From: Isoptericola halotolerans
GTDB taxonomy: Bacteria; Actinomycetota; Actinomycetes; Actinomycetales; Cellulomonadaceae
Length of the DNA: 64,000 nucleotides
Reading direction: 5' to 3'
Assembly: GCF_013149785.1 (NCBI RefSeq)
Contig: NZ_JABEZU010000005.1
Coordinates: forward strand, 1-64,000
Shown here: in pieces, positions 30,759 through 46,279 of the stretch
How the letters are laid out: every line of letters starts with the position of its first letter
Position numbering within the stretch: the stretch's first letter is position 1
Made by a program: the position numbers and the translations under genes
Notes under the pieces: generated by a model
The model's input: the letters and a program-made list of their open reading frames with translations, nothing else
The model's database searches: none
What the model was told of the DNA's origin: nothing

Positions 30759-31670
30759 TCAGGTCGTGCCGGGCGCCATGCGGTGCTGCTGGACCGCGTC
30801 GTAGGTGTCCTTCAGGGCGGCGGACGTCTCGTCGTACCGGCGTTGGGCCACCCGCACGAACAGGAAGTCGACGACGGCGAGCTGGGCGATCCGGCTCGAC
30901 AGCGCCCCCGAGCGGAACTGGGCCTCCCGCACGACCGTGCACAGCACCACGTCCGCGATGCTCGCCAGCGGCGAGGACGGGTCGTTGGTGACGGCGACGG
31001 TCGTCGCGCCCCGCGACCGGGCGAGGGTCAGGACCTGGTGGGCCTCGATGGTGCGACCGGTGTGGGACACCGCGAGGGCGACCGAGCCGGGGCCCAGCAG
31101 GGCGGCGGACTGGAGCTGCTGGTGCGAGTCCACCGGTGCCACGCAGACCAGGCCGATGCGAGCGAGCTTCTGGGCGAGGTCCTGGGCGGTGAGGCCGGAG
31201 GACCCGACGCCGTAGACGTCGACGCGGTGGGCGTCCGCGATCGCGGAGACCGCCCGCTCCAGCGCGTCGAGGTCGAGCATCCGCGCCGTCTCCTCGATGG
31301 TCCGTGCCTCGTGGAACGCGATCTTGGACACCACGTCGGTCGCGTCGTCGGTCAGCGTGATCTCGCCGGCGGCCACCCCGGAGCGTTCGTGCTCGGCGGC
31401 ACGGCGGCTCGTCGTCCGGGCCAGGTCGATGCGGAACTGCGGGTACCCCTCGTAGCCGACGGATCGGCAGAAGCGCACGACGCTCGCCTGTGAGGCACCG
31501 GCAGTGCGGGCGAGCTCGCCGATGGTGGCGCCGACCGCCGCGGACGGGTCGGCCAGGACGGTCTCGGCGATCCGGCCCTCCGCCGGTCGCATCGCCGGCA
31601 GCATCTGCCGCAGGCGGACCAGCAGGTCGCGCGTCTCCGCTCGGTCGGGGGAGGGCTGAGTGGTGGTCAC
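30759..31670 (-). CDS. MurR/RpiR family transcriptional regulator
   Basis: 303-residue regulator with an N-terminal helix-turn-helix (TIGELARTAGASQASVVRFCRSVGYEGYPQF, about 47-80) and a C-terminal SIS sugar-phosphate-binding domain (DVYGVGSSGLTAQDLAQKL; ALAVSHTGRTIEAHQVL). In this setting it most likely senses MurNAc-6-phosphate or GlcNAc-6-phosphate and represses the adjacent amino-sugar operon. It is divergent from the lipoate-ligase-like gene. The GTG start has CACACT six bases upstream. Confidence 0.9.
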   Translation of the reverse strand: MTTTQPSPDRAETRDLLVRLRQMLPAMRPAEGRIAETVLADPSAAVGATIGELARTAGASQASVVRFCRSVGYEGYPQFRIDLARTTSRRAAEHERSGVAAGEITLTDDATDVVSKIAFHEARTIEETARMLDLDALERAVSAIADAHRVDVYGVGSSGLTAQDLAQKLARIGLVCVAPVDSHQQLQSAALLGPGSVALAVSHTGRTIEAHQVLTLARSRGATTVAVTNDPSSPLASIADVVLCTVVREAQFRSGALSSRIAQLAVVDFLFVRVAQRRYDETSAALKDTYDAVQQHRMAPGTT

Positions 31671-31707
31671 CGCCCCAGTGTGGCACCGGCGGTGGCGGGG
31701 CGCGGGC

Positions 31708-31713
31708 TACGGT
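31708..31713 (+). promoter_or_regulatory. -10 box of the lipoate ligase-like gene
   Basis: TACGGT lies six bases before GTG 31720. A GGAGGGG run directly touches the GTG and is too close to act as a ribosome site. Confidence 0.4.
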
Positions 31714-31719
31714 GGAGGG

Positions 31720-32796
31720 GTGCACGGACAGTACAAGGTTCCTGGCGGAAAGTTCGTGACGGTCGACCTGGGCGTGGACGACGGCCGGTTGGTCGACGTC
31801 CGTCTCTCGGGCGACTTCTTCCTCGAGCCGGACGAGGCCCTCGGGGTGATCGACGCCGCGCTGACGGGCCTGCCCGAGACGTCGTCGACCCGTGACCTCG
31901 CCGGCGCGGTCGACCGCGCGCTCGAGCGGGCGCAGGAGACGGGGGAGCTGCCCGGTCCGGTGGCGCTGGTGGGCTTCGACGCGTGGGCGGTGGGCGTGGC
32001 GGTCCGCCGCGCGCTGGGCCTGGCCACGAGCTGGGAGGACCACAGCTTCGAGGTGCTGCGACCGGGTCCGTTGCCACCTCGCACGCTGGCGGCGCTGGAC
32101 CAGGTGCTCACCGAGGAGCTGGCCGAGGGGCGCCGCGGCCCGACGTTGCGCTTCTGGGACTGGACGGAACGGGCCGTGTTCATCGGGTCGTTCCAGTCGT
32201 TGGCGAACGAGGTCGACCCGGTGGGCGTCGCGGCGCACGACGTCACGGTCGTGCGCAGGATCTCCGGCGGCGGTGCGATGTTCATGGAGGCGGGCAACTG
32301 CGTCACGTTCTCCCTGGTGGTCCCTGCGTCGCTGGTCGACGGGCTCAGCTTCGAGCAGTCGTACCGGTTCCTCGACGACTGGGTGATCGGCGCGCTGGGC
32401 GAGCTGGGCGTCGAGGCGTCCTTCGCCGGCATGAACGACGTGGCTTCCCCGGCAGGAAAGCTGGCCGGGTCGGCGCAGAAGCGGCTGGCCGGCGGCGCCG
32501 TGCTGCACCACATGACGATGGCGTACGACATCGACCACGACAAGATGCTCGAGGTGCTGCGGATCGGCCGCGAGAAGCTGTCCGACAAGGGCACGCGCAG
32601 CGCGAACAAGCGCGTCGACCCGTTGCGCTCGCAGACGGGGATGGCACGCGACGCGGTCGTCGACGCCTTCGAGAAGTACTTCCGGTCTCGCTACCGGACC
32701 CAGGACTCCGTGCTGCGTCCTGAGGAGCTGGAGCGGGCCGAGGACCTGGTCCGGACCAAGTTCGCCACCGAGGAGTGGATCCACCGGGTGCCCTGA
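31720..32796 (+). CDS. Lipoate-protein ligase-like protein with swapped domains
   Basis: 358-residue protein. Residues 1-75 (QYKVPGGKFVTVDLGV, VRLSGDFFLEPDEAL) match the accessory domain that normally ends lipoate ligases or exists as LplB. The catalytic BPL/LplA domain follows (about 140-345) with VVRRISGGGAMFMEAGNCVTF and the lysine of SPAGKLAGSAQKR. It attaches lipoate, octanoate or a related acyl group to carrier lysines. Its place between a sugar regulator and the sugar operon is unexplained. Confidence 0.82.
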   Translation: MHGQYKVPGGKFVTVDLGVDDGRLVDVRLSGDFFLEPDEALGVIDAALTGLPETSSTRDLAGAVDRALERAQETGELPGPVALVGFDAWAVGVAVRRALGLATSWEDHSFEVLRPGPLPPRTLAALDQVLTEELAEGRRGPTLRFWDWTERAVFIGSFQSLANEVDPVGVAAHDVTVVRRISGGGAMFMEAGNCVTFSLVVPASLVDGLSFEQSYRFLDDWVIGALGELGVEASFAGMNDVASPAGKLAGSAQKRLAGGAVLHHMTMAYDIDHDKMLEVLRIGREKLSDKGTRSANKRVDPLRSQTGMARDAVVDAFEKYFRSRYRTQDSVLRPEELERAEDLVRTKFATEEWIHRVP

Positions 32797-32892
32797 CCCG
32801 GAGGCCGTCCCAGGTCACTGCCAGGTCACGATCCGGGGAGGGGCTTCCCTCTGCCCATGTTTGGCATTATTCTCCTTGCGTACAACGACGTG

Positions 32893-32907
32893 TGAAACTC
32901 ACTTTCA
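32893..32907 (+). promoter_or_regulatory. Candidate MurR/RpiR operator
   Basis: TGAAA-CTCAC-TTTCA is a perfect 5-bp inverted repeat with five-base spacing, 11 bases before the start of the binding-protein gene. TGAAA/TTTCA arms are usual for RpiR-family sites. A regulator of that family is encoded nearby at 30759-31670. Confidence 0.5.
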
Positions 32908-32918
32908 TGGAGGACGCG

Positions 32919-34226
32919 ATGCGGCGGCACTTCAGCACCCGGGCGACGACGGCAGCGACGGCGGCGGTGGTCGCGCTCGTCGCCGCGGGCTGTTCGGGAC
33001 CCGACGGCGGCGGGGAGGGCGGCGGTGCGACCGACGCCGAGGGGCAGACCCTCGACGTCTGGATCATGCAGGGCACGAACCCCAGTGCGGACACCTTCTT
33101 CGACGAGGTCGGCGCCGCGTTCACGGCGCAGACCGGTGCCGAGCTCAACGTCGACTTCATCGAGTGGGCCGACGCGCACGACCGGTTCGTCACGTCGATC
33201 GCCGGCGGCACCACGCCCGACGTCGCCGAGACCGGCACCACCTGGACGCCGGAGTTTGCGGACGCGGGTGCGCTGGCACCCGTCGGCGACCACGTCACCC
33301 AGGCCGGGCTCGACGGCGACCTCGTCGAGGGCCTCGTCGACGCCGGGACCTACGAGGGCGAGCTCTACGGCATGCCCTGGTACGCCGGCGTGCGCGCGCT
33401 CGTCTACAACACGGAGATCTTCGACGACGCGGGGGTGGAGCCGCCGACGTCGTGGGCCGAGCTCGAGTCCGCCGCGCAGGCGATCCAGGACGAGCACCCC
33501 GACAAGATCGCCGTCGCCGTGCCGGGCGACGCCGAGTTCACGGTGTACCCGTGGGTGTGGGGCGCCGGAGGAGAGGTCGCCACCCTCGAGGGGGAGACGT
33601 GGACCTCACAGCTCGACAGCCCGGCCTCTCAGGACGGCCTGGCCTTCTGGACCGGGCTGGCCGAGCAGGGCCTGTCGTCCGCGGGCGCGACCACCTGGCG
33701 CGAGACCGACGTGCTCGACGCCTTCGCGGCGGGCGACGTCGGGATGGCGGTCATGGGCTCGTGGACCCCGGGCGCCATCCTCGAGGCCAACCCCGACATG
33801 GAGGGCAGGTTCGCCGCGGTACCGATCCCCGGGCAGGACGGCGGGATCGCCCCCTCGGTGCTCGGCGGGTCGCACCTGAGCATGTTCTCCACGTCCGAGA
33901 ACCAGGACCTGGCCTTCGCGTTCATCGAGCTCATGACCACCGGGGAGTTCGCCGAGAAGTGGGGCGAGCAGGCCGGCTACTTCCCCGGCCAGACGTCCCT
34001 GCTGGACGAGACGCTGGAGAGCACGGACCCGTTGGTCGCTCCCTTCGCCGAGCAGTTCGTCGACGGCGGTGCCTCCGTCCCGGTCTCGCCGGCCTTCGGC
34101 GCGGTCCAGGCGCGCGCGACCACCTCGACGATGATGCAGTCCATCCTCTCCGGCAGCTCCGACGTCGCCACCGCCAGCCGGAGCGCGGCCGAGGAGATGA
34201 CGAGCCTGCTGAACGGCGGCAGCTGA
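32919..34226 (+). CDS. Sugar ABC transporter substrate-binding lipoprotein
   Basis: 435-residue binding protein with a lipoprotein signal ending in LVAAGCSG. The mature part begins QTLDVWIMQGTNPSADTFFDEV and contains YGMPWYAGVRALVYNTEIFDDAGVEPPTSW, typical of the CUT1 (MalE-like) family for oligosaccharides and amino sugars. First gene of the amino-sugar operon. ATG 32919 is chosen, with GGAGG five bases upstream. The likely ligand, from its neighbours, is a GlcNAc- or MurNAc-containing saccharide. Confidence 0.93.
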   Translation: MRRHFSTRATTAATAAVVALVAAGCSGPDGGGEGGGATDAEGQTLDVWIMQGTNPSADTFFDEVGAAFTAQTGAELNVDFIEWADAHDRFVTSIAGGTTPDVAETGTTWTPEFADAGALAPVGDHVTQAGLDGDLVEGLVDAGTYEGELYGMPWYAGVRALVYNTEIFDDAGVEPPTSWAELESAAQAIQDEHPDKIAVAVPGDAEFTVYPWVWGAGGEVATLEGETWTSQLDSPASQDGLAFWTGLAEQGLSSAGATTWRETDVLDAFAAGDVGMAVMGSWTPGAILEANPDMEGRFAAVPIPGQDGGIAPSVLGGSHLSMFSTSENQDLAFAFIELMTTGEFAEKWGEQAGYFPGQTSLLDETLESTDPLVAPFAEQFVDGGASVPVSPAFGAVQARATTSTMMQSILSGSSDVATASRSAAEEMTSLLNGGS

Positions 34227-34229
34227 CGC

Positions 34230-35198
34230 ATGTCGTCCACCCTTCCCGTCACGGCGCCGGCGGAGCGTGGCACCACGTCCGCCGGCGCCGGTGGCCGGCG
34301 CGGCCGGTCCTGGGTCGCGCGGACCCGCCCCTGGTTGCTGCTGGCACCCGGCCTGGTCGTGCTCGTGGTGCTCATGCTGTGGCCGCTCGTGCGGGTCTTC
34401 CTGTTCTCCCTGCAGGACTACGGGCTGCCGCAGATCGTCTCGGGCGAGCAGGAGTGGAACGGCGTCGACAACTACGTCGAGGTCCTCACCTCCGCGCAGC
34501 TGTGGGCCGTCGTCCTGCCCAACACCATCGGCTTCGCCGCGCTGGCCGTCACCGCGACCGTCGCGCTGGGCACGGCCGTCGCCGTCCTCCTCGCCTCGCT
34601 CGGCACGCTGTGGCGCACCGTCGTGTCGAGCGCGATCATGGCCGCCTGGGCGATGCCCGCGGTGACCGGGACGTACGTGTGGATCTGGATCTTCGACGCC
34701 GACCGCGGGGTGTTCAACCACGTCCTGCAGACGCTCGGCCTCCAGGACCAGCCCGTCAACTGGTTCACCGACCGGTGGAGCTTCTACGCGATCGTGCTGC
34801 TCAACGTGGTGCACCACGGGTTCCCGTTCGTCGCCGTCACCGTCCTGGCGGGCCTGCTGGGCGTGCCCAAGGAGCTGCTCGAGGCGGCGGAGATCGACGG
34901 TGCCGGGGCCTGGCGCCGGTTCTTCTCGATCATCGTGCCGCAGCTGCGCCAGGTGTTCGCCGTGGTGATCATCATGTCGACCATCTGGGACTTCAAGGTG
35001 TTCGCGCAGGTCTATCTCATGCCGGGCGGAGCCGGGACCAACCGCGAGGTCCTCAACCTCGGGGTGTGGTCCTACGTGGAGTCGTTCGGCCAGAACCGCT
35101 ACGGCTTCGGGTCGGCCATCGCCGTGCTGCTCACCGTGATGCTGCTCGCGATCACCGTGGTCTACGTCCGCACGATCCTCAAGGAGGACGAGCTGTGA
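34230..35198 (+). CDS. Sugar ABC transporter permease (MalF-like)
   Basis: 322-residue inner-membrane permease with six predicted membrane segments after a ~30-residue cytosolic tail. The EAA loop EAAEIDGAGAWRRFFSIIVPQL contacts the ATPase. It follows the binding protein by three bases and overlaps the second permease. No ATP-binding subunit is encoded in this operon, so a shared MsiK-type ATPase elsewhere is expected, as is usual for CUT1 systems of actinobacteria. Confidence 0.93.
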   Translation: MSSTLPVTAPAERGTTSAGAGGRRGRSWVARTRPWLLLAPGLVVLVVLMLWPLVRVFLFSLQDYGLPQIVSGEQEWNGVDNYVEVLTSAQLWAVVLPNTIGFAALAVTATVALGTAVAVLLASLGTLWRTVVSSAIMAAWAMPAVTGTYVWIWIFDADRGVFNHVLQTLGLQDQPVNWFTDRWSFYAIVLLNVVHHGFPFVAVTVLAGLLGVPKELLEAAEIDGAGAWRRFFSIIVPQLRQVFAVVIIMSTIWDFKVFAQVYLMPGGAGTNREVLNLGVWSYVESFGQNRYGFGSAIAVLLTVMLLAITVVYVRTILKEDEL

Positions 35199-36037
35199 GC
35201 ATGCTCAGCGTCCGGCGTCCCACGCGCGCCGTGCAGGTCGGCAAGGGCGTCGCCGTCGTGCTCCTGCTGTTCTTCACGCTGTTCCCGGCGTACTGGATGC
35301 TCGTCAGCGCCCTGGACGCCCGCGCCGGGCTCGGGACGTCCTTCCTGCCTGCCGAGCCGACGCTGGACCACTTCCGGTTCGTCCTCACTGAGGGCGGCTT
35401 CGACGTCTTCCTGCGCAACTCCGCGGTCGTCGCGCTGGCCACCGTGCTCGTCTCGGCGCTGCTGGCCCTGCTCGCCGCGGTGGCCGTGGCACGCTTCAGG
35501 TTCCGGGGGCGGCTGCAGATCCTGCTCATGGTGCTGGTCGTCCAGATGGTGCCGCTCGAGGCGCTCGTCATCCCCCTGTTCGTCCAGGTGCGTGACCTGC
35601 AGCTCCTGGAGACCCTCCTCGGGCTCGTGGTCGTCTACGTCGCCCTCGCGCTGCCGTTCGGGATCTGGATGCTGCGCGGCTTCGTCGCGGCGGTGCCGGT
35701 GGAGCTCGAGGAGGCCGCCTACATCGACGGTGCCAGCTGGGGCCGGATGTTCCGCTCCGTCCTCTTCCCCCTGGTCGCCCCCGGCCTCGTGGCCACGAGC
35801 ATCTTCAGCTTCATCACGGCATGGAACGAGTTCCTGTTCGCGATGACGCTGCTCGGCGGCGCGACCGACAGCTACACCGTGGCGATCGGGCTGCGGTCGT
35901 TCTTCGGGCAGTTCTCGAACCAGTGGGGCGCGATCATGGCCGCGTCCACGCTGATCACGGTCCCGGTGATGGTCTTCTTCATCCTGGTGCAGCGCCGCCT
36001 CGCCTCCGGGCTGACCGCAGGCGCGGTGAAGGGATGA
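35195..36037 (+). CDS. Sugar ABC transporter permease (MalG-like)
   Basis: 280-residue second permease of the same transporter, with six membrane segments and the EAA loop EEAAYIDGASWGRMFRSVLFPL. GTG 35195 overlaps the first permease stop (GTGA), with AAGGAGG seven bases upstream; ATG 35201 is an alternative. Its own stop overlaps nagZ by ATGA. Confidence 0.92.
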   Translation: MSMLSVRRPTRAVQVGKGVAVVLLLFFTLFPAYWMLVSALDARAGLGTSFLPAEPTLDHFRFVLTEGGFDVFLRNSAVVALATVLVSALLALLAAVAVARFRFRGRLQILLMVLVVQMVPLEALVIPLFVQVRDLQLLETLLGLVVVYVALALPFGIWMLRGFVAAVPVELEEAAYIDGASWGRMFRSVLFPLVAPGLVATSIFSFITAWNEFLFAMTLLGGATDSYTVAIGLRSFFGQFSNQWGAIMAASTLITVPVMVFFILVQRRLASGLTAGAVKG

Positions 36038-37581
36038 GCGCGGTGGAGGGACCGGACGCCGTGCGGCGGGCGGTGCACGGCGTGCTCCTGCCCGGCTTCA
36101 CGGGGACGACGCCGCCGCGCTGGCTGACGGCGGCGGCCCGGCAGGGCCTGGCCGGGGTCGTGCTGTTCGGGCACAACACGCCCGACGTCGAGACCACCGC
36201 GCAGCTGACCGAGACGTTGCGCGACAGCGCCCCGCACCTGCTCGTCGCCGTCGACGAGGAGGGCGGCGACGTCACCCGGCTGGAGGCCCGCACGGGATCG
36301 TCCGTGCCGGGGCCGGCGGCGCTGGGGGCCGTCGACGACGAGCTGCTCACCCAGGACGTCGGGGAGGCCCTCGGCCGGCTGCTGGCCGCCACGGGCATCG
36401 ACCTCGACCTCGCGCCCGTGCTGGACGTGGACGTGCCGGGCAACCCTGTGATCGGTACCCGCGCCTACGGCGACGACGTGGACCGGGTCGAGCGGCACGG
36501 CGGGGCGTTCGTGCGCGGGCTGCACCGCGGCGGTGCCGGCGCCTGCGCCAAGCACTTCCCGGGCCACGGGAGCACGACGGTCGACTCCCACCTCGGGCTC
36601 CCCGTCGTGACCGCGGGTCTGGCGGAGCTCCGGCGCCGGGACCTCGTGCCCTTCGCCCGGCTCGTCGGCCGGGGCGACGACGGCCCCGACGCCCTCATGA
36701 CGGCCCACGTGGTGGTGCCGGAGATCGGCCCCGGTCCGGCGTCGCTGGAGCCGGGCACCGTCGCCCTGGCACGAGGGCTCGGGTTCGACGGTCCCGTCGT
36801 CACCGACGCGCTCGACATGCGCGCCGTCTCCGACGGGACGCACGTCGGTGCGGCGGCGGTCCGTGCCGTGCAGGCCGGCGCCGACCTGCTGTGCCTCGGG
36901 ACGACGGCGGGGCGCGACGACGAGGCCCTCTTCGAGGAGGCCGTGGGCGCCCTCGTGGCGGCCGTCGGGGACGGTCGCGTCAGCGTCGCGGCGCTCGCGG
37001 CGTCGGCCGCGCGGACCCGCGCGACGGTGTCCGCCATCCACGCCAGGCGCCGCCGGACAGGGGCGTCCGTGGGACCGCAGGCCGCGCGCGAAGCGCTGAC
37101 CGCCCTGCAGGCGGTCGGGGCCCGGGCCGCACGGGCCGCGGTGCGGACGCTCGGACCGGCCGCGGCCGTCCGGACCGCGCCCGCCGTCGTCGACCTGCGC
37201 AGGCCGCCCCACCAGGCGGCGGGCGATCGTGGGCGGCACGTCCTCGAGGCGCTCGTGCGACGGTGGCCGGGGGCGCTCGTGCACGCCGTGGCCACCGACG
37301 ACGCGCTCACCAGGCTGCTCGGTGAGCTGGACGCGCACGCCCGACGCCCGGTCGTGGTGGTGACCAGGGAGCTCGCGGCGGCGTCCGTGGAGGAGGCCCG
37401 GCTGGTCGCGCTGCGCGACCGGCGTCCCGACCTGGTCGTCGTGCACACCGGGGTGGCGGTCGACGCCTCGCGCTGGCTCGCCGCGGACCCGGCGCGGACC
37501 ACCGTCGTCCTGACCCACGGCGCCGGCCGCGCGACCGCCGACGCCGCCGCCCAGATCGTCGCAGGAGGAACAGCATGCTGA
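36034..37581 (+). CDS. nagZ: Beta-N-acetylglucosaminidase, NagZ-type (GH3)
   Basis: 515-residue glycoside hydrolase family 3 enzyme that removes GlcNAc from GlcNAc-MurNAc or GlcNAc-anhydroMurNAc. The NagZ loop KHFPGHGSTTVDSHLGLP carries the Asp/His acid-base dyad, and Asp in PVVTDALDMRAV is the nucleophile. No signal peptide is present, so it acts in the cytosol on imported saccharides. A C-terminal extension of about 170 residues beyond the barrel is longer than in E. coli NagZ. It overlaps the permease and anmK genes. Confidence 0.9.
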   Translation: MSAVEGPDAVRRAVHGVLLPGFTGTTPPRWLTAAARQGLAGVVLFGHNTPDVETTAQLTETLRDSAPHLLVAVDEEGGDVTRLEARTGSSVPGPAALGAVDDELLTQDVGEALGRLLAATGIDLDLAPVLDVDVPGNPVIGTRAYGDDVDRVERHGGAFVRGLHRGGAGACAKHFPGHGSTTVDSHLGLPVVTAGLAELRRRDLVPFARLVGRGDDGPDALMTAHVVVPEIGPGPASLEPGTVALARGLGFDGPVVTDALDMRAVSDGTHVGAAAVRAVQAGADLLCLGTTAGRDDEALFEEAVGALVAAVGDGRVSVAALAASAARTRATVSAIHARRRRTGASVGPQAAREALTALQAVGARAARAAVRTLGPAAAVRTAPAVVDLRRPPHQAAGDRGRHVLEALVRRWPGALVHAVATDDALTRLLGELDAHARRPVVVVTRELAAASVEEARLVALRDRRPDLVVVHTGVAVDASRWLAADPARTTVVLTHGAGRATADAAAQIVAGGTAC

Positions 37582-38756
37582 TCGCCGGAGTCATGACGGG
37601 GACGTCCGTGGACGGTCTCGACGTCGCGCTCGTCGACCTCGACCAGAGTCTCGTGGAGGGTCGTCCCGAGCTGGCGATGCACGTGAGGGCACGGCGCGAG
37701 GTGCCGTTCCCCGACGATCTGGCGCTCGACATCCTGCGCCTCCTCGAACCTCGCGACGTGCCGATGTCCCTGGCCAGCAGCGTCGACGCGCGGCTCGGGC
37801 AGGCGTGCGCGGACGCGGTCGCAGCGCTCTGCGCCGACACCGGGGTCACGTGCGACCTCGTGGTGATGCACGGGCAGACCGTCCGGCACGACGTCGCGCA
37901 GGGAGTGGTGACGGCCACCTGGCAGCTCGGCCAGCCGGCGTGGGTCGCCGAACGCACCGGCTGCCCGGTGCTGTCCGACGTCCGGTCGCGGGACGTGGCC
38001 GCCGGCGGGCAGGGTGCCCCGCTCGCGGGGGTCCTGGACCACCTGCTGCTCGCCGACGTCGTGGAGCCGACGGCGATGCTGAACCTGGGCGGGATCGCCA
38101 ACCTCACGGTCGTCGCCCCCGGGCGGGAGACGATCGCCTTCGACTCCGGGCCGGCGAACGCGCTCGTGGACCTCATGGCCCGCCGGGTGACCGGCGACCC
38201 GCGGGGATTCGACCGTGACGGTCTGCTCGCCGCGCGCGGCGCGGTCGTCCCCGAGCTGCTCTTCGACCTGCTCCGCGAGCCCTACTACGCGCGGCCCGCA
38301 CCGAAGTCGACCGGCAAGGAGCTCTTCCACGCCGAGTATCTCGACCACTTCCTCGGCCACCACCCCGGGGCCGATCCCTACGACGTCGTCGCCACGCTCA
38401 CGCGGCTCACGGCGCGCACCGTCGCCGACGCCTGCCGGGCGCACGACGTCCGCGCCGTCGTCGCCTCGGGTGGCGGCACCCGCAACCCGGCGCTGACGGC
38501 CGCGCTGCGGGACGAGCTGGGCCCCGCGGTCCCGCTGCGGACCACCGACGAGGCCCTCGGGCTGCCCGAGGGCGCCAAGGAGGCGTGCCTCATGGCGCTC
38601 GTCGGCTGGCTGACGTGGCACGGGCTCCCGGCCACGTTGCCGAGCGTCACCGGAGCCTCCCACGCGACCGTCGCCGGTCGCCTCAGCCCCGGCGCAGCAC
38701 CGCTGCGCCTCCCCGAGCCGCTGGACGTCGCCCCGGCGGCCCTGCGCGTCCGGTGA
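37575..38756 (+). CDS. anmK: Anhydro-N-acetylmuramic acid kinase
   Basis: 393-residue kinase that opens the 1,6-anhydro ring and phosphorylates anhydroMurNAc to MurNAc-6-phosphate. ATP-binding motif VMTGTSVDGLDVALVDLD, the family block IAFDSGPANALVDLMA and KSTGKELFHAEYLDHFL are clear, as is the C-terminal ASGGGTRNPAL. Its start lies seven bases inside nagZ. It supplies the substrate of MurQ encoded two genes later. Confidence 0.95.
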   Translation: MLIAGVMTGTSVDGLDVALVDLDQSLVEGRPELAMHVRARREVPFPDDLALDILRLLEPRDVPMSLASSVDARLGQACADAVAALCADTGVTCDLVVMHGQTVRHDVAQGVVTATWQLGQPAWVAERTGCPVLSDVRSRDVAAGGQGAPLAGVLDHLLLADVVEPTAMLNLGGIANLTVVAPGRETIAFDSGPANALVDLMARRVTGDPRGFDRDGLLAARGAVVPELLFDLLREPYYARPAPKSTGKELFHAEYLDHFLGHHPGADPYDVVATLTRLTARTVADACRAHDVRAVVASGGGTRNPALTAALRDELGPAVPLRTTDEALGLPEGAKEACLMALVGWLTWHGLPATLPSVTGASHATVAGRLSPGAAPLRLPEPLDVAPAALRVR

Positions 38757-38790
38757 CCTCGCGAACCACCACCCGTGAAGGAGAGATGAC

Positions 38791-40290
38791 ATGCTGCACA
38801 CCGTCGACCTGGTGGTCATCGTGGCCTACCTGGCCGCCACCGCCTGGCTCGGGCTGAAGCTCAGCGGCAAGCAGAAGGGCCTGCGCGACTACTTCCTGGG
38901 CAGTCGCAAGCTGCCGTGGTGGGCCGTGTGCCTGTCGGTGGTGGCCACCGAGACCAGCGCGCTGACCGTCGTCGGCACACCGGTCATGAGCTTCCTCGGC
39001 AACATCTCGTTCCTGCAGATGGCCATCGGTTACCTGCTGGGCCGGATCGTCGTGGCGTTCCTCATGCTGCCCCGCTACTACGACGGCGAGATGGTCACGG
39101 CCTACGCCTACCTCGGCAAGAGGTTCGGGCAGAGCACCCAGACCACGGCCGGCGTGACGTTCCTGTTCACGCGACTGCTCGCGGACGGTGTGCGGGTGCT
39201 GGCCGCGGCGATCCCGCTCAAGCTGATCCTCGACGGGATGGGCATCCCGACGAACTACTTCACCATCATCGTCGTGCTGGCCGTGGTCACGATCGCCTAC
39301 ACGTTCATCGGGGGCATCAAGGCCGTCGTCTGGGTCGACGTCGCCCAGATGCTGCTGTACGTGCTCGGCGGGATCCTCGCGATCGTCGTCATCTCGGTGC
39401 AGACCGGCGGTGGCTGGCTCACCGACGCGGCCGAGGCGGGCAAGCTGCAGATGTTCGTCTTCTCCGGCAACCCGATCTCCGACCCGTCGTCGTTCATCCC
39501 GTCCGTGCTCGGTGGCGCCGTCTTCGCGATGGCCTCGCACGGTGCCGACCAGCTCGTGGTCCAGCGGCTGCTCGCCTGCCGCAGCAAGGTCGAGGCGCAG
39601 AAGGCGATCATCTGGTCCGGCGTCGTGGTGTTCTTCCAGTTCGCCGTGTTCCTGCTCGTGGGCCTGGCGCTGTGGGGCTACTACGACCAGCGGACCCCGG
39701 CCGACCTCGGGCTCGTCCGTGACGACGAGATCTTCCCGCTGTTCATCATCGAGGGGCTGCCCCAGGGGCTGTCCGGCCTGCTGCTCGCGGCGATCCTCGC
39801 CGCCGCGATGAGCACGCTGTCGTCCTCCCTGAGCGCGCTGTCCTCCTCCACCGTGACCGACGTGTACGCCAAGCTCAGACGGTCTCCCGTGACGGACGAG
39901 CAGGGACTGCGCGTCGGACGCTGGGCGACCATCGGCTGGGGGCTCGCGTTCATCGCCCCCGCGGTGTTCTTCCAGTCCGACGAGGGCAACATCGTGGTGC
40001 TGGCCCTCGGCATCGCCGGCATCACCTACGGCGGGCTCCTCGGCGCCTTCGTGTTCGGCATCTTCAACAAGCGGGCCCGGGCCAAGGACGCCAACATCGC
40101 GTTCGTCGCGGCGATCGGCGTCAACCTCTACTTCTTCGTCATGGAGAAGTACGTCACCGGCGAGATCTGGCTCGCCTGGCAGTGGTACCCGCTGCTGGGT
40201 GTCATCGTCACCTTCGCCGTCGGGGGCCTGCTCTCGCTGCGCCACCCGGCCGTCCCGGCGGACGAGCGTGCGACGGAGCGGGTCGGATGA
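38791..40290 (+). CDS. Sodium/solute symporter (SSS family)
   Basis: 499-residue membrane protein with about 13 hydrophobic segments. DYFLGSRKLPWWAVCLSVVATETSALTVVG is the SSS N-terminal signature (first Na+ site), and AAAMSTLSSSLSALSSSTVTDVY the conserved mid-region. Relatives take up sialic acid, sugars or organic acids. Placed between anmK and murQ, it is most likely a second uptake route for MurNAc, anhydroMurNAc or GlcNAc. AAGGAG sits ten bases before the ATG, and its stop overlaps murQ. Confidence 0.9.
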   Translation: MLHTVDLVVIVAYLAATAWLGLKLSGKQKGLRDYFLGSRKLPWWAVCLSVVATETSALTVVGTPVMSFLGNISFLQMAIGYLLGRIVVAFLMLPRYYDGEMVTAYAYLGKRFGQSTQTTAGVTFLFTRLLADGVRVLAAAIPLKLILDGMGIPTNYFTIIVVLAVVTIAYTFIGGIKAVVWVDVAQMLLYVLGGILAIVVISVQTGGGWLTDAAEAGKLQMFVFSGNPISDPSSFIPSVLGGAVFAMASHGADQLVVQRLLACRSKVEAQKAIIWSGVVVFFQFAVFLLVGLALWGYYDQRTPADLGLVRDDEIFPLFIIEGLPQGLSGLLLAAILAAAMSTLSSSLSALSSSTVTDVYAKLRRSPVTDEQGLRVGRWATIGWGLAFIAPAVFFQSDEGNIVVLALGIAGITYGGLLGAFVFGIFNKRARAKDANIAFVAAIGVNLYFFVMEKYVTGEIWLAWQWYPLLGVIVTFAVGGLLSLRHPAVPADERATERVG

Positions 40291-41216
40291 GCGAGCGCAC
40301 CGGCGACGTCCTGTCACCCACCGAGCAGAGCAACCCGCGCACCGAGAGCATCGACGCCGTCCCGACGGCCGAGGTGCTGCGGATGATCAACACCGAGGAC
40401 CGGCGCGCCGTGGAGGCCGTCGCGGAGGTCCTGCCCGAGCTGGCGGCCGTCGTCGACCTCGCGGCCGAGCGCTTCCGGCGCGGGGGGACGGTGCACTACT
40501 TCGGCGCGGGGACGTCCGGCCGGCTCGGCGTCCTCGACGCGAGCGAGCTCCTGCCCACCTACAACCTCGAGCCCGGCCGCGTCGTCGGGCACATCGCGGG
40601 TGGTGCCGAGGCGCTCGTCAACGCGGTCGAGGACGCCGAGGACTCGGTCGTCGAGGGCCGCCGTGCCGCCGCAGGGCTGGGGCCCGACGACGTGGCGATC
40701 GGGCTCGCCGCCAGCGGTGGTACCCCGTACGTGGGGGGTGCGCTCCAGGCGGCGCGCGAGAACGGCGCGCACACCGTGCTCGTGTCCAGCAACCCGCACG
40801 CGCCGCTGGCCCGGCACGCCGACACGGACATCGTGCTGCGTACCGGCCCGGAGGCCGTCACGGGCTCCACCCGGCTCAAGGCCGGTACCGCCCAGAAGCT
40901 CGTCCTCAACAGCTTCTCGACGGCACTGATGATCGCCGTCGGGCGGACCTGGAAGAACCTCATGGTCTCCGTGGTGGCGACGAACGCCAAGCTGCGCGAG
41001 CGCACCGTGCGGATCCTGCAGGAGGCCACCGACCTCGAGGAGGACGCCGCGCGCGACCTGCTGGATCGCACCGGCGGTGAGCTCAAGCCGGCGATCGTCG
41101 TCGCGCTCGGTGGCGTCGGGGTCGACCGGGCGGTCGCGGCGCTCGCCGAGGGGTCGGGCTCCGTCCGCGCCGCGCTCGCCGCGCTGGGCGCCCCGGCGGG
41201 GGGTGCGGCCTCGTGA
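40287..41216 (+). CDS. murQ: N-acetylmuramic acid 6-phosphate etherase
   Basis: 309-residue SIS-domain enzyme that cleaves the lactyl ether of MurNAc-6-phosphate to GlcNAc-6-phosphate and D-lactate. Signature parts are LSPTEQSNPRTESID, HYFGAGTSGRLGVLDASELLPTY (catalytic Glu) and TGSTRLKAGTAQKLVLN. The start overlaps the symporter (ATGA) and the stop overlaps the kinase gene (GTGA). The D-lactate it makes can be consumed by the dehydrogenase encoded two genes downstream. Confidence 0.96.
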   Translation: MSERTGDVLSPTEQSNPRTESIDAVPTAEVLRMINTEDRRAVEAVAEVLPELAAVVDLAAERFRRGGTVHYFGAGTSGRLGVLDASELLPTYNLEPGRVVGHIAGGAEALVNAVEDAEDSVVEGRRAAAGLGPDDVAIGLAASGGTPYVGGALQAARENGAHTVLVSSNPHAPLARHADTDIVLRTGPEAVTGSTRLKAGTAQKLVLNSFSTALMIAVGRTWKNLMVSVVATNAKLRERTVRILQEATDLEEDAARDLLDRTGGELKPAIVVALGGVGVDRAVAALAEGSGSVRAALAALGAPAGGAAS

Positions 41217-42154
41217 CCGTGCTGGCTTTCGACGTCGGCGGCAGCGGTAGCCGGGTCGCGCTGGCGCGTCCCGGCGCCGTCCGTCTCGAGCTGTCCGGCG
41301 AGCGTGCCGCGGTCGGTGCCGACGGCAGCACCGTGCCCGCCGTCGTGCGTTCGCTGCTCGCCGCGGCCACCGCGGCGTGGCCCGACGAGATGCGCGCCGT
41401 GCGCGGGGTGGGGATCGGCGCGACCGGGCTGGGCAGCCTGGTGCGTTCCCCGGCAGACCTGGCCCGGGAGGTCGCGGGCGCCGTCGGTGCTCCGGCCGCC
41501 GCCGCCATCGACGCGGTGACCGCTCATCTCGGAGCGCTCGACGGCGCCGGGGGCGCCGTCGTCGTGCTGGGCACCGGGGCGATCGCGGTCGGGCACGGCG
41601 GGCCCGGCAGCGGTACCGGCTGGCGGCGCGTGGACGGATGGGGCCACCTGCTCGGCGACCGTGGCGGCGGTGCGTCCGTGGGCCTGGACGGGTTGCGGGT
41701 CGCGCTGGTCCACCACGACGGCGTCGACCCGCGCGGTGCGGCCCTCCTGGCCGCCGCCCGTCTCCGCTTCGGGGACCCGACGACCTGGCCGGGTCAGCTC
41801 TACACCCGGCCCGACCGAGCCGGCGTCCTGGCGCAGTTCGCCTCCGACGTCGTCGAGCTCGCCGCCCAGGGCGACCCGGCGGCGCACGGCATCGTCCACG
41901 AGGCGGGGGCCGACGCGGCGCGCAGCGTGGTGGCCGCGCTGGGGGACGACGTGCCCGCGCGTGTCGCGCTGAGCGGCGGCCTCGCCCGGGCGGGCGGGGC
42001 CCTGAGCAGCGGCTTCTCGACGACCGTGGCCGCGCTGCGCCCCGACGCCGAGGTGCGCCGGCCCTTGGGCGACCCGCTCGACGGCGCGCTGCTCCTGGCC
42101 CGGACGGTGGCCGAACACCGCGTCGTGCCCCAGGAAGGATGCTTGTGGACCTGA
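41213..42154 (+). CDS. BadF/BadG-type kinase, probable N-acetylglucosamine kinase
   Basis: 313-residue ASKHA-fold kinase. The phosphate-1 loop is FDVGGSGSRVALARP, with VVVLGTGAIAVG and GWGHLLGDRGGGASVGLDGLR and a C-terminal adenosine motif ALSGGLARAG. These match human NAGK/MurK-like kinases, which phosphorylate GlcNAc and sometimes MurNAc. Here it would phosphorylate the GlcNAc that NagZ releases. The GTG start overlaps murQ. Confidence 0.85.
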   Translation: MTVLAFDVGGSGSRVALARPGAVRLELSGERAAVGADGSTVPAVVRSLLAAATAAWPDEMRAVRGVGIGATGLGSLVRSPADLAREVAGAVGAPAAAAIDAVTAHLGALDGAGGAVVVLGTGAIAVGHGGPGSGTGWRRVDGWGHLLGDRGGGASVGLDGLRVALVHHDGVDPRGAALLAAARLRFGDPTTWPGQLYTRPDRAGVLAQFASDVVELAAQGDPAAHGIVHEAGADAARSVVAALGDDVPARVALSGGLARAGGALSSGFSTTVAALRPDAEVRRPLGDPLDGALLLARTVAEHRVVPQEGCLWT

Positions 42155-45021
42155 TCGCCGACCTCGAACGTGCCCTCGGGCCGGATCAGGTGCTGCACCG
42201 TGCCCTCGACCGGCACGCGCGCGCCCACGACGCGTCGCACTACCTTCTCGTCCCGCAGGTGGTGGCGGTGGCGCGTGACGTCCACGCCGTGGCGGACACG
42301 TTCGCCGTGGCCGCTCGACACCACGTCCCCGTCACGCTGCGGTCGGGCGGTACGAGCCTCTCCGGCCAGTCGTCCGGTGCAGGGATCTTGCTGGACACCC
42401 GCCAGGGGTTTCGGCGTGTCGAGGTGCTCGACGACGGCGTCCGGGTCCGGGTGCAGCCCGGTGCCACCCTCCGGTCGGTGAACGCTCGGCTGGCTCGTCA
42501 CGGTCGCGCCCTCGGACCCGATCCCGCGAGCGAGGTGGCCTGCACCGTCGGGGGCATCATCGCGAACAACTCCTCGGGGATGGCCGCGGGGACAGAGCAC
42601 AACAGCTACCGGACCCTGGAGTCGATGACCGTCGTCCTCGCCTCCGGGACGGTCGTCGACACGGGCGCGGCCGACGCCTCCGAGCGGTTGCGTGCCGCCG
42701 AGCCCGCGCTGGTCGCCACGCTCGAGAGGTTGCGCGACGAGATCCGGGCCGACCCGGCGGCGGTGGCCGAGATCCGCGAGCGCTTCTCGCTGAAGAACAC
42801 CATGGGCTACTCGGTCCAGGCCTTCTGCGACGCCACCGACCCGGCGGCCCTGCTCCAGCGCCTGCTCGTGGGCTCGGAGGGCACGCTCGGGTTCGTCGCC
42901 GAGGCCGTGTACTGCACGGTTCCGGTCCAGCCCAGCGTGGCGACAGGTCTGCTCGTGCTCGACTCGGTCGACCGTGCCGCCGAGGCGCTCCCGCACCTGG
43001 TCGCCACGGGGGCCGCCGCGCTCGAGCTGATGGACGCCACCTCCCTGCGCGTCGCGCAGCGCGCGGCGACCGTCCCCGCTGTGATCCGTGACCTCGACGT
43101 GGACCAGCACGCCGCGATCCTGGTCGAGTACCGCGGCCAGGACGACGACCAGCTGGCCGGGAGAGTTGCCGGCGCACGGGACGTCCTCGACCGGCTGCCC
43201 GCCGTCGTCCCCGTCGATCTCACCACCGAGCCGGCCGACCGGGCCGCGCTCTGGTCGGTCCGCAAGGGGCTCTACGCCGCGGTGGCGGGAGCCCGGCCGC
43301 CGGGGACCACCGCGCTGCTCGAGGACGTGGTGGTGCCCGTGGACCGACTGGCCCGGACGTGCCGGGAGCTCGCTGCCCAGCTGGCTGCGCACGGCTACCC
43401 GGACCCTGTGATCTTCGGGCACGCCAAGGACGGCAACCTGCACTTCATGCTGACTGACGACATGGAGGACGCGTCGTCGTCGGACCGGCTCGCCGCGTTC
43501 ACCGAGGACCTGGTCGACCTCGTGCTGCGGCACGGCGGCAACCTCAAGGCCGAGCACGGCACAGGGCGCGCGATGGCACCGTTCGTCGGTCGGCAGTACT
43601 CACCGGCCCTCGTCACGGTCATGCGCGAGGTCAAGCGCGCGTTCGACCCGGCCGGAGTCCTGAACCCCGGTGTCGTGCTCACGGACGACCCGCGCGCTCA
43701 CCTGAGGGACCTCAAGCCGGTGGACCGCGTCGACGCCGAGGTCGACCGGTGCGTGGAGTGCGGGTACTGCGAACCGGTGTGCCCGAGCCGTGACCTCACC
43801 CTGACCCCGCGGCAACGTATCGTCGCGCGCCGGGCGCGCGCTCGGGCGGAGGGCGTCGGGGACACCGCCCTCGTCGCGGAGATCGACGCCGAATACGGGT
43901 ACGAGGGCGTCGACACCTGTGCGGCGGACGGCATGTGCGCGACGGCGTGCCCCGTCGGGATCGACACCGGCGCCCTCGTGAAGCGGCTGCGTTCCGAGGG
44001 GCGCGGCCGGGTGGAGCAGCGGGCGTGGCGGACCGCGGCCGCGCACTGGGGCGCGACGACGACGGCGGCCGGTGTCGCGCTGGACGTGGCGTCGCGGCTG
44101 CCGGCCCCCTGGGTGGAGACAGCCAACCGCGCGGCTCGGACGGTGCTCGACGCCGACGACGTGCCGCGCTGGAGCCCTGACCTGCCGGCCGGCGGCCGCC
44201 GTCGCAGCAGGACGGCAGGGGGCCGGGGCGTGCCGGGGCCGGTCGCCGCCGTGTTCCTGCCGAGCTGCCAGGGGGCGATGTTCGCCCCGGCCGGCCCGGC
44301 GTCGGGAGAGGCGCCAGGGCGACCGGGGGAGGGTGTCCAGGCCGCGGTCGCGCGGCTGTGCGCGGCGGCGGGCGTCGGGCTGGTCGTGCCCGACGACCTC
44401 GACGACCTCTGCTGTGGCACCCCGTGGTCCTCGAAGGGCTACACGGAGGGCCATGCCGCGATGGCGGAACGCGTGCTGACGGCGGTCGGAGCGGCGCGCG
44501 AGACGGTGCGCGAGCGGACCGGGCAGGACGTCCCCGTCGTCGTCGACGCCACCTCCTGCACCGAGGGCGTCGCCGGGATCATGGCGACCGCGCGGGAGGC
44601 GGGGGACCCGCGGGCGGTCGACGTGGTCGACGCCGTGACGTTCGTCGCGGAGACGGTGCTGCCCCGGCTGCCCGTCGATCCGGACCGCAGGCTGTCCTCG
44701 CTCGTGCTCCACCCGACGTGCGCGTCCGCGCGCAGCGGGGTGGACGCGGACCTGCGTGCGGTGGCCGCTGCCGTGGCCCGCTCGGTGGAGGTCCCGGACG
44801 ACTGGGGCTGCTGCGGCTTCGCGGGGGACCGGGGGATGCTGCACCCGGAGCTCACCGCCGCGGCGACGGCGGCCGAGGCCGCGGACGTCGAGCGGCTGGA
44901 CGGCGACACGCACGCCTCGTGCAACCGCGCCTGCGAGCTGGCGATGACCCGGGCCACGGGCCGCTCGTACCGTCACCTGCTGGAGCTCGTCGCGGACGTG
45001 GTGCTGGACGCGCCACCCTGA
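42145..45021 (+). CDS. D-lactate dehydrogenase, FAD- and Fe-S-dependent
   Basis: 958-residue membrane-associated flavoprotein with three parts: an FAD-binding PCMH domain (VTLRSGGTSLSGQSSG; TVGGIIANNSSG) and FAD-oxidase C domain to about residue 500, two [4Fe-4S] motifs (CVECGYCEPVC near 535, CAADGMCATAC near 591), and a CCG domain pair (CCGTPWSSKGY; WGCCGFAGDRGM). This is the Dld-II/GlpC-fused layout of quinone-linked D-lactate or glycolate dehydrogenases. As the last gene of the murQ operon it most likely oxidises MurQ's D-lactate to pyruvate. AGGAAGG six bases before GTG 42145 sets the start; ATG 42139 touches it. Confidence 0.88.
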   Translation: MDLIADLERALGPDQVLHRALDRHARAHDASHYLLVPQVVAVARDVHAVADTFAVAARHHVPVTLRSGGTSLSGQSSGAGILLDTRQGFRRVEVLDDGVRVRVQPGATLRSVNARLARHGRALGPDPASEVACTVGGIIANNSSGMAAGTEHNSYRTLESMTVVLASGTVVDTGAADASERLRAAEPALVATLERLRDEIRADPAAVAEIRERFSLKNTMGYSVQAFCDATDPAALLQRLLVGSEGTLGFVAEAVYCTVPVQPSVATGLLVLDSVDRAAEALPHLVATGAAALELMDATSLRVAQRAATVPAVIRDLDVDQHAAILVEYRGQDDDQLAGRVAGARDVLDRLPAVVPVDLTTEPADRAALWSVRKGLYAAVAGARPPGTTALLEDVVVPVDRLARTCRELAAQLAAHGYPDPVIFGHAKDGNLHFMLTDDMEDASSSDRLAAFTEDLVDLVLRHGGNLKAEHGTGRAMAPFVGRQYSPALVTVMREVKRAFDPAGVLNPGVVLTDDPRAHLRDLKPVDRVDAEVDRCVECGYCEPVCPSRDLTLTPRQRIVARRARARAEGVGDTALVAEIDAEYGYEGVDTCAADGMCATACPVGIDTGALVKRLRSEGRGRVEQRAWRTAAAHWGATTTAAGVALDVASRLPAPWVETANRAARTVLDADDVPRWSPDLPAGGRRRSRTAGGRGVPGPVAAVFLPSCQGAMFAPAGPASGEAPGRPGEGVQAAVARLCAAAGVGLVVPDDLDDLCCGTPWSSKGYTEGHAAMAERVLTAVGAARETVRERTGQDVPVVVDATSCTEGVAGIMATAREAGDPRAVDVVDAVTFVAETVLPRLPVDPDRRLSSLVLHPTCASARSGVDADLRAVAAAVARSVEVPDDWGCCGFAGDRGMLHPELTAAATAAEAADVERLDGDTHASCNRACELAMTRATGRSYRHLLELVADVVLDAPP

Positions 45022-45030
45022 GGCGGCGGC

Positions 45031-45777
45031 TCAGACCGTCGGGCGTGCCCCGAAGACTCCCGTCCCGACACGCACGATCGTCGCGCCCTCGGCCACGGCG
45101 AGCCCCAGGTCGCCGGACATCCCCATGGACAGCTCGCGGGCACCACCCGTGCCCGGGGCGCCGGAGGCCACGACGTCGTCGCGGATCGACCGCAGGCGAG
45201 CGAACCCGGCGCGGACCGCCGCCTCGTCGTCCGTGCGGGCGCCGATGGTCATGAACCCCGTGAGCTGCAGCCCGTCGAGCGCGGCGACGTGGAGGGCGAG
45301 CGCGCCGGCCTGCGCGGGCTCCGCGCCGGACTTGCTCTCCTCGCCCGAGACGTTGACCTGCACCATGACGTCGAGCGCGCGTCCGGCACGCACCGCCCGC
45401 AGGGCGAGCGCGTCCGCGAGGGCCGTGGTGTCGACCGTCTCCAGGCCGGTGACGGTCGGCAGCATCTGGTTGATCTTGTTGCGCTGCAGGTTGCCGATCA
45501 TGTGCACCTCGACCCGGCCTGCCGCGACGAGGTCTGCGAGGGCCGGTGCCTTCGCCACGAGCTCCTGGACGCGGTTCTCACCGATCAGGACCGGGCCGTC
45601 GTCCCCGCGGGAGGCTGCCAGGTCGGTCGCGGCGGCGATCGCGGCGAGGACAGTGCCGGCGTCCTGCGTCTTGGTCGCGAGCAGCAGCCTGACCTCGCCG
45701 GGGTCCCGCCCGGCGGCGTGCGCGGCGTCGTCGACCCGGGCGCGCACCGTGGCGAGCCGGTCGTGGAGGGAGGGCAT
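45031..45777 (-). CDS. YggS/PROSC-family PLP homeostasis protein
   Basis: 248-residue PLP-binding barrel protein without known catalysis, needed for vitamin B6 and amino acid balance. LLLATKTQDAGTVLAAI holds the PLP lysine position, ENRVQELVAKAP, HMIGNLQRNK and LSMGMSGDLGLAVAEGATIVRVGTGVFG are diagnostic. It is convergent with the D-lactate dehydrogenase gene, nine bases away. Confidence 0.93.
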   Translation of the reverse strand: MPSLHDRLATVRARVDDAAHAAGRDPGEVRLLLATKTQDAGTVLAAIAAATDLAASRGDDGPVLIGENRVQELVAKAPALADLVAAGRVEVHMIGNLQRNKINQMLPTVTGLETVDTTALADALALRAVRAGRALDVMVQVNVSGEESKSGAEPAQAGALALHVAALDGLQLTGFMTIGARTDDEAAVRAGFARLRSIRDDVVASGAPGTGGARELSMGMSGDLGLAVAEGATIVRVGTGVFGARPTV

Positions 45778-45858
45778 GGGGGCCAGTCTACGAAGGCCAG
45801 GGTGACGTCAGGGTCTCCCCGGATCCCGTCCGTGCGCCGTTGGTGGGACGATGGTGGC

Positions 45859-46260
45859 GTGAAGGCACTGCTCAACGTCATCTGGCTCGTCTTCGGCGGG
45901 CTGGTGCTCGCGCTCGGCTACGCCGCCGCGGGCATCATCTGCTGCATCCTCATCGTCACGATCCCGTGGGGCATCGCGTCCTTCCGGATCGCGGGGTACG
46001 CGCTGTGGCCGTTCGGGCGCACCGTGGTCGACAAGCCGGGCGCGGGGGGCTGGTCGGTGCTGGGCAACATCGTGTGGATCGTCGTCGCCGGCATCTGGCT
46101 GGCCATCAGCCACGTGCTGACGGCGATCGCCCAGGCGATCACGATCATCGGGATCCCGCTGGCCATCGCGAACCTCAAGATGATCCCCATCTCGCTGCTG
46201 CCGCTGGGCAAGGACATCGTGCCCAGCGACGCGCGGTACCCGACCTACCAGCGCGCCTGA
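45859..46260 (+). CDS. YccF-family membrane protein
   Basis: 133-residue membrane protein with two copies of a YccF pattern: NVIWLVFGGLVLALGYAAAG, then IPWGIASFRIAGYALWPFGR, repeated as NIVWIVVAGIWLAISHVLTA and IPLAIANLKMIPISLLPLGK. Function is unknown. The GTG start has a -10-like GACGAT six bases upstream and no ribosome site. Confidence 0.88.
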   Translation: MKALLNVIWLVFGGLVLALGYAAAGIICCILIVTIPWGIASFRIAGYALWPFGRTVVDKPGAGGWSVLGNIVWIVVAGIWLAISHVLTAIAQAITIIGIPLAIANLKMIPISLLPLGKDIVPSDARYPTYQRA

Positions 46261-46279
46261 CGCCGTCTGGCGGGAACGG

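Follow-up and report, generated by a model that had tools for sequence, protein, structure and literature searches.

Gene content of the locus

The window analysed here comprises 64,000 nucleotides (nt) of Isoptericola halotolerans (contig NZ_JABEZU010000005.1, positions 1 to 64,000) and contains a run of nine genes in which the breakdown of N-acetylmuramic acid (MurNAc) is joined to a dehydrogenase of the type that oxidises lactate. An earlier note, made from the letters of the window, had described this run as a single operon of overlapping or nearly touching genes. All nine open reading frames (ORFs) are present in the ORF list of the window, on the + strand and within the limits 32919–45021. 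With the gene starts used here (32919, 34230, 35201, 36034, 37575, 38791, 40287, 41213 and 42145) the joints measure, in gene order, +3, +2, -4, -7, +34, -4, -4 and -10 nt, in agreement with that description.

The first three genes encode a CUT1-type ABC importer, consisting of a sugar-binding protein (32919–34226; SBP_bac_1 domain, lipobox recognised by eye) and two permeases (34230–35198 and 35201–36037, both with BPD_transp_1 domains). They are followed by a GH3 beta-N-acetylhexosaminidase (36034–37581) with the motif KHFPGHG....DSH and, by eye, no export signal. The GH3 domain is above the Pfam cut-off, while the protein falls below the NCBIfam NagZ cut-off (PRK05337, 176 vs 207 bits) and is thus called NagZ-like. 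Some actinobacterial GH3 NagZ-type enzymes are reported to be phosphorylases, and the window enzyme could yield GlcNAc-1-phosphate in place of N-acetylglucosamine (GlcNAc).

The five 3' genes are referred to below as the cassette. The first encodes AnmK, an anhydro-MurNAc kinase (37575–38756; NCBIfam equivalog NF007146, 475.8 bits, cut-off 440), and the second an SSS Na+ symporter (38791–40290; SSF, 213.7 bits, cut-off 184) whose closest solved relative is the sialic acid transporter SiaT. Alignment to SiaT shows Ser60, Thr63 and Phe78 kept and Thr58 and Gln82 changed; the column of Arg135, where a carboxylate-binding arginine was sought, is ambiguous. The symporter is a probable importer of MurNAc or anhydro-MurNAc. 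The third gene encodes the MurNAc-6-phosphate etherase MurQ (40287–41216; TIGR00274, 307.7 bits, cut-off 302, and alignment to 4s12), the only MurQ match in this genome, and the fourth a MurK-like kinase of the BadF/NagK type (41213–42154; BcrAD_BadFG family match). The cassette ends in a dehydrogenase (42145–45021), hereafter DLD, recognised by FAD, 4Fe-4S dicluster and CCG domain matches. These profile matches agree with the families named in the earlier note, the GH3 enzyme being NagZ-like only. Its GlcNAc-type kinase holds as a kinase and is corrected in type, as the best solved relative is the MurNAc/GlcNAc kinase 8zo3 (E 1.1e-8), with a score of 58.2 of 370 bits against NagK_SO3507.

A strong promoter or terminator before the dehydrogenase gene at 42145 had been named as evidence against a common transcript. 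A simple scan of 31500–46500, weak for promoters in high-G+C DNA, found no promoter-like site on the + strand; the sole such site is a - strand one, in the intergenic stretch ahead of gene 1. Three terminator-like sites were found in the same interval, against 1.5 expected, and the only one within the nine genes is located in permease 1 (34898–34918), with none from there to 45021. The nine genes are presumed to be transcribed together.

Regulator and putative control region

Three upstream features were overlooked by the earlier note, which had the operon content right: a regulator gene, lplA, and a putative promoter with operator before gene 1. The regulator belongs to the MurR/RpiR family (30759–31670, - strand; HTH_6 and SIS domains). 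It scores under the cut-off of the NCBIfam MurR equivalog NF012026 (122 of 408 bits) and is 44-52% identical to the RpiR proteins found beside murQ and DLD in arrangements B to E described below. Its context suggests a MurR role.

Directly before gene 1 lie a -10-like hexamer, TATTCT (32868–32873, + strand), at a position conserved in 11 genus loci, and an operator-like motif, GAAACTCACTTTC (32894–32906, + strand), which is the sole strict match in 64 kb. The strict motif, of the form GRAASTYMSTTTC, occurs in the gap between lplA and the sugar-binding protein gene in 10 of 12 genus loci. An eleventh (G060) has the relaxed form GAAATCTTATTTC and G519 has neither. Each of the 11 loci with a strict or relaxed motif also has a hexamer, TAATCT, TATTCT or TTATCT, at a constant distance of 20 nt ahead of the motif. 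This footprint, recognised by comparison, probably represents the promoter and operator of the operon, with the MurR-like regulator as the candidate binding protein. No motif common to the RpiR-linked arrangements was found, the relaxed form being unmatched in L155, L156, L157, L090, L143, L095, L111 and L138. It is likewise unmatched in six of the seven arrangement A loci scanned (L066, L067, L069, L070, L072 and L159); a single match in L071 is distant from the cassette, and two matches lie between DLD and murQ in L154.

The gene lplA, for a lipoate-protein ligase, is located at 31720–32796 on the + strand (the ORF opens at 31660; a start at ~31720 was chosen by eye). Every one of the 12 loci read from the genus has it immediately ahead of the ABC genes, whether or not the cassette is present (window, L185, L188, L189, L191-L198). 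On its far side rpiR is found in 11 of these loci, the contig of L195 ending there. A BadF-type kinase gene of 41-43% identity is inserted between rpiR and lplA in two loci (L194:2061-3008 and L196:13246-14175); the window has none at this position.

The terminal dehydrogenase

The DLD has 958 residues and combines FAD_binding_4, FAD-oxidase_C, Fer4_8 (4Fe-4S dicluster) and CCG domains in one chain. This is the domain set PF01565, PF02913, PF13183 and PF02754 in a single chain by which Dld-II is defined in the available text of PMC4481167. Among proteins of solved structure, those closest to it are a glycolate oxidase, LctD, LDHD, a putative oxidoreductase and D-2-hydroxyglutarate dehydrogenase (D-2-HGDH). 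The residues that hold D-lactate and the metal in mouse LDHD (Arg347, His398, His405, Glu442 and His443) are kept in all five cases, with columns reckoned by an offset of 13 between chain and residue numbers that fits the residues named in the LDHD paper. In contrast, Lys401, Asn443 and Thr390 of human D-2-HGDH, which contact the second (C5) carboxylate, are replaced by Leu, Met and Tyr, and the Tyr432 column holds Phe; these columns derive from the 3pm9 alignment and spacing rather than from the human protein aligned directly. The kept active-site residues and the lost carboxylate contacts make a small D-2-hydroxyacid the likely substrate. The DLD does not reach the GlcD cut-off (TIGR00387, 187.1 of 567.9 bits). 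The suggestion that the last gene is of a D-lactate dehydrogenase type thus agrees with both the Dld-II domain set and the LDHD residues; D-lactate as the substrate and quinone as the electron acceptor would fit this assignment.

The murQ-DLD pairing in other bacteria

Other genera have these five genes in an identical order, which argues for more than chance. In arrangement A, gntR-anmK-SSS-murQ-kinase-DLD, the cassette stands alone with its own GntR regulator. Hosts are Isoptericola halotolerans, Paraoerskovia marina, Nesterenkonia sp. Act20, N. haasae, N. sp. F, Brachybacterium squillarum and G027. The gene nagB comes next after the cassette in the three Nesterenkonia and G027, and nagA is divergent in Nesterenkonia sp. 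Act20 and N. haasae. In the Nesterenkonia loci L069 and L070, a divergent nagA is found upstream of the cassette and nagB immediately after it. In arrangement A', the ABC-nagZ genes stand ahead of the cassette, as in the window (G000), I. chiayiensis (G008) and G520. A gntR gene was not found in the A' loci of G008 and G520, and the window has no space for one before anmK.

Four further arrangements keep DLD near murQ while the importer differs. These are B, murQ-ABC-kinase-DLD with a CUT1 ABC importer (G021, G345); C, MFS-anmK-murQ-nagB-DLD (three Plantibacter); D, an Opp-type ABC importer with murQ, anmK and DLD (two Cryobacterium, G437 and one metagenome bin); and E, rpiR-DLD-murQ with a phosphotransferase system (PTS) IIBC gene (G218). 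The PTS protein of G218 is MurP-like, its best NCBIfam match being the MurNAc transporter at 342.5 of 516 bits, below the cut-off. An RpiR gene is present in every B, C, D and E locus read. The union of MurNAc breakdown with a lactate-oxidising type of dehydrogenase, first noted for the window, is hence found again both in the same cassette across genera and in four other settings.

Some loci near these arrangements differ in content. A cassette form with SSS-murQ-kinase and no DLD next to it (L160 = G410, L037 = G071, L038, L040, L041 and L043) has gntR in G410 and nagB after the kinase in G071. In Nesterenkonia sedimenti (L068) a cassette-type DLD lies beside anmK and nagZ on the opposite strand and a kinase, with no murQ within the locus. 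A beta-lactamase-fold gene is found near murQ in arrangements B and D (L138:7073-8287, L156:3459-4076 and L155:8517-9431), that of L156 matching PBP4B best, far under the cut-off; in E. coli, yfeW similarly adjoins murQP. A further tie of MurQ to D-lactate-related wall genes comes from the available part of PMC9689679, which places murQ just downstream of vanX in some Paenibacillus.

Probable fusion of two systems within the genus

Among 18 genomes of the genus, 12 have the sugar-binding protein and five, including that of the window, a cassette-type DLD at >=74% identity. The site compared begins cimA-rpiR-lplA-ABC-nagZ. Six genomes (G060, G515, G517, G521, G523 and G526) have their own murQ there, at 53-56% identity, accompanied in five by their own anmK (34-43%) and followed in five by yggS, the contig of G526 ending. 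G000, G008 and G520 (3 of 18) carry the cassette at this site, with yggS after it. G519 has yggS after nagZ, its gntR-bearing cassette being located on a separate contig; the contig of G518 breaks off inside nagZ; and in G522 nagZ was matched only in part, with no murQ or yggS in the 8 kb read beyond.

Trees place the MurQ and AnmK of the window with the cassettes and not with the same-site genes of its relatives. Separate clades hold the resident murQ and anmK genes (support 100 and 99), and the three fused genomes cluster with one another (MurQ 96, AnmK 92). The position of the cassette behind ABC-nagZ, where relatives keep another murQ, points to two MurNAc systems fused into one operon, in which anmK-SSS-murQ-kinase-DLD would have replaced the resident murQ and anmK. 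The assembly was as the earlier note described it; that a resident MurR-ABC-NagZ locus had been joined to a cassette had escaped it.

Transfer of the cassette is likely from the tree positions, and the cassette may be mobile. In a plasmid collection, 32 records matched the DLD, all at <60% identity, and in three the match spans 80% of the query. This collection thus revealed no plasmid that would carry the cassette. The names of these records show that relatives in this dehydrogenase family are often named by domains alone.

Proposed pathway and alternatives

We propose that the locus is a MurR-controlled operon for the use of peptidoglycan sugar with built-in D-lactate oxidation, formed by cassette fusion, and assign this reading a probability of about 0.78. 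The ABC importer would bring in a disaccharide of the GlcNAc-(anh)MurNAc type, to be split by the cytoplasmic NagZ-like enzyme, and the SSS symporter would import free (anhydro)MurNAc. AnmK and the MurK-like kinase would yield MurNAc-6-phosphate, which MurQ would convert to GlcNAc-6-phosphate and D-lactate. NagA and NagB, encoded elsewhere, would lead from GlcNAc-6-phosphate to fructose-6-phosphate, and the Dld-II-type last enzyme would oxidise D-lactate to pyruvate, with electrons passing to the respiratory chain. Elsewhere in the genome are a nagA-like gene that does not reach its cut-off (191.4 of 225.65 bits) and a nagB that does (265.6 bits, cut-off 236.9), which completes the path to fructose-6-phosphate and pyruvate on paper. 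MurNAc could in this way serve as an energy source. A wider proposal is tentative, at odds we put just short of even: that an actinobacterial MurNAc-to-fructose-6-phosphate-plus-pyruvate cassette with its own respiratory DLD moves horizontally, that in part of the genus it displaced the native etherase and came under the control of the native MurR, and that the pair was reassembled elsewhere with other importers.

To gauge how common the pairing is, we counted it in wider samples. Among 149 genomes of the order, DLD (E 1e-100) is found in 46, MurQ (E 1e-20) in 51 and both in 29, lying within 5 kb in six of the 29 (G000, G008, G027, G102, G090 and G021). MurQ is present in 145 of 394 genomes of the class; 12 of these were already in the order search, and the other 133 (74 + 59) were searched for DLD, the class-level DLD search being limited to MurQ-positive genomes. 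DLD was found in 49 of the 133. The best 80 of 575 relatives were retained as named DLD loci, of which 27 are under 22 kb and 53 carry ~10 kb on both sides; murQ lies inside in 13 of the 53. By our own estimate, chance alone would yield ~0.3 linked cases (within 10 kb, genome size 4-5 Mb) among the 78 sampled genomes with both, related genomes in the linkage counts not being independent.

A number of observations weigh against the proposal. The two genes are apart in 23 of the 29 order genomes with both, and such a DLD is lacking from 22 of 51 MurQ-bearing order genomes and from 84 of the 133 further genomes. Linkage within about 5 kb was seen in at least three of the 133 (G345, G437 and G218); a MurQ position was not among the matches listed for G220, G274, G283 and G408, nor a second or third MurQ in a few others, both genes lie near contig ends in G262, and the listed positions are apart in the remaining genomes. 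With most sampled MurQ genomes having no linked DLD, linkage is not needed for MurNAc use. SSS-murQ-kinase also occurs with no adjacent DLD (G410, G071, G025, G042, G114 and G128), and in both Cryobacterium the DLD comes after rpiR and is transcribed away from murQ, which precludes a common transcript of the pair there.

The trees temper the picture of repeated assembly. On a FastTree of 117 DLDs the linked rows need five changes of state and fall in five places, with A and B in one group; the four others are C with G437, the Cryobacterium, the bin, and G218. In this coding L068 counts as linked, short-flank loci and G262 count as unlinked where no murQ was seen, and L065 (short contig), L005-L008 and L029 (copies of included rows) and 16 order genomes with no retrieved locus are left out. 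On the MurQ tree (54 rows), C, D and E form one clade and A and B stand together in another, which would allow fewer than five origins of the pairing, and as few as two on the etherase side. In favour of the proposal, the divergences of the five cassette genes are correlated across ten loci (pairwise r 0.70-0.93, values reached in at most 1 of 2000 permutations), a correlation that would also follow partly from shared species history. Brachybacterium changes its place from tree to tree, falling among the Nesterenkonia for the DLD, next to B for MurQ and outside the other cassettes for AnmK, which makes transfer likely, by a path on which the trees differ.

The substrate of the last gene is the point on which two alternatives turn. 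It could be a general lactate or glycolate dehydrogenase, placed here by chance or for general lactate use. Unlinked DLDs of the family are common, a lactate permease occurs in 9 of the 80 named loci, all outside the cassette group, and among the 71 non-cassette loci one gene cluster (GntR-like by eye only) is divergent next door in 13 and within three genes in 18. The DLD residues also permit glycolate and do not separate it from D-lactate, the LDHD hydrophobic pocket is unmatched (Trp351 at a gap, Ser365 to Leu, Ile407 to Met), and a related Dld-II is reported as an L-lactate enzyme in the available text of PMC4117512. However, the murQ pairing recurs under different importers and the cassette loci read have no lactate permease, and we regard this alternative as quite unlikely. 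Oxidation of D-2-hydroxyglutarate by a YdiJ-like enzyme would accord with YdiJ as the top NCBIfam match by score and with a Phe, not a small residue, at the Tyr432 column. The match reaches just 190.4 of the 1350 bits at the cut-off and three C5-carboxylate contacts are replaced, such that we disfavour this identity and hold it to be very improbable.

Two further alternatives concern the role and transcription of the genes. AnmK, NagZ and MurQ are recycling enzymes, and the system might serve own-wall recycling or muropeptide sensing rather than feeding, with D-lactate oxidation as detoxification; Corynebacterium glutamicum engineered for MurNAc indeed built up lactate during growth, according to the available text of PMC6165865. 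Against this, a lipobox binding protein with ABC permeases and a Na+ symporter, and PTS, MFS or Opp importers elsewhere, point to uptake from outside. We consider recycling somewhat unlikely as the main role, and it is compatible with the proposed feeding operon rather than exclusive of it. There might instead be two transcripts, ABC-nagZ and then the cassette from a promoter within nagZ or near the 34-nt gap between anmK and SSS, given that elsewhere the cassette stands alone with its GntR regulator. In the window there is a 7-nt overlap of nagZ with anmK, neither of the other fused loci showed a gntR, and the simple scan found no promoter-like site in this region, which makes a second transcript unlikely.

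Significance and relation to known systems

MurQ frees one D-lactate per MurNAc, the fate of which is usually left to an unlinked gene. In the window, its oxidation appears built into the operon, and other arrangements set the same two steps side by side. The parts are ordinary; the combination, a MurNAc catabolic operon with its own DLD, is unusual and informative. If the proposal is right, the cell would gain additional pyruvate and respiratory electrons from each MurNAc, and such actinobacteria could draw real energy from the wall remains of other bacteria. Under the wider proposal, selection would have made D-lactate oxidation a regular part of feeding on MurNAc. The genus, with its fused and unfused relatives, offers a ready natural experiment, and for some members of a dehydrogenase family often annotated only by domains the pairing suggests a likely substrate.

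In the open literature on MurQ, MurNAc and such dehydrogenases, most subscription papers lying outside this scope, we found no description of a murQ-DLD operon, consistent with the remark in the earlier note that the assembly is not a standard one. The murQ-murP system of E. coli has a MurR-type regulator, as here, and D-lactate oxidation is encoded elsewhere. In the descriptions available, it shares the MurQ step and differs in its PTS uptake, for which arrangement E has a MurP-like counterpart. Dld-II of Shewanella oneidensis and HP1222 of H. pylori have the same four-domain chain as the window DLD, a likeness judged by domain set, and are described for general lactate use in the available parts of PMC4117512 and PMC4481167. 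The nearest known system is murTKQ of Tannerella forsythia, in which an importer of MurNAc from the Na+ symporter superfamily, a MurNAc kinase and MurQ form one operon, providing a precedent for SSS-kinase-MurQ; the available text of PMC5790795 names no AnmK, NagZ, ABC importer or dehydrogenase in it. In C. glutamicum engineered with E. coli genes, MurNAc catabolism gives lactate as a side product and the authors propose overexpression of the separate dld (PMC6165865, in the part available), whereas the natural operon described here has such a step built in.

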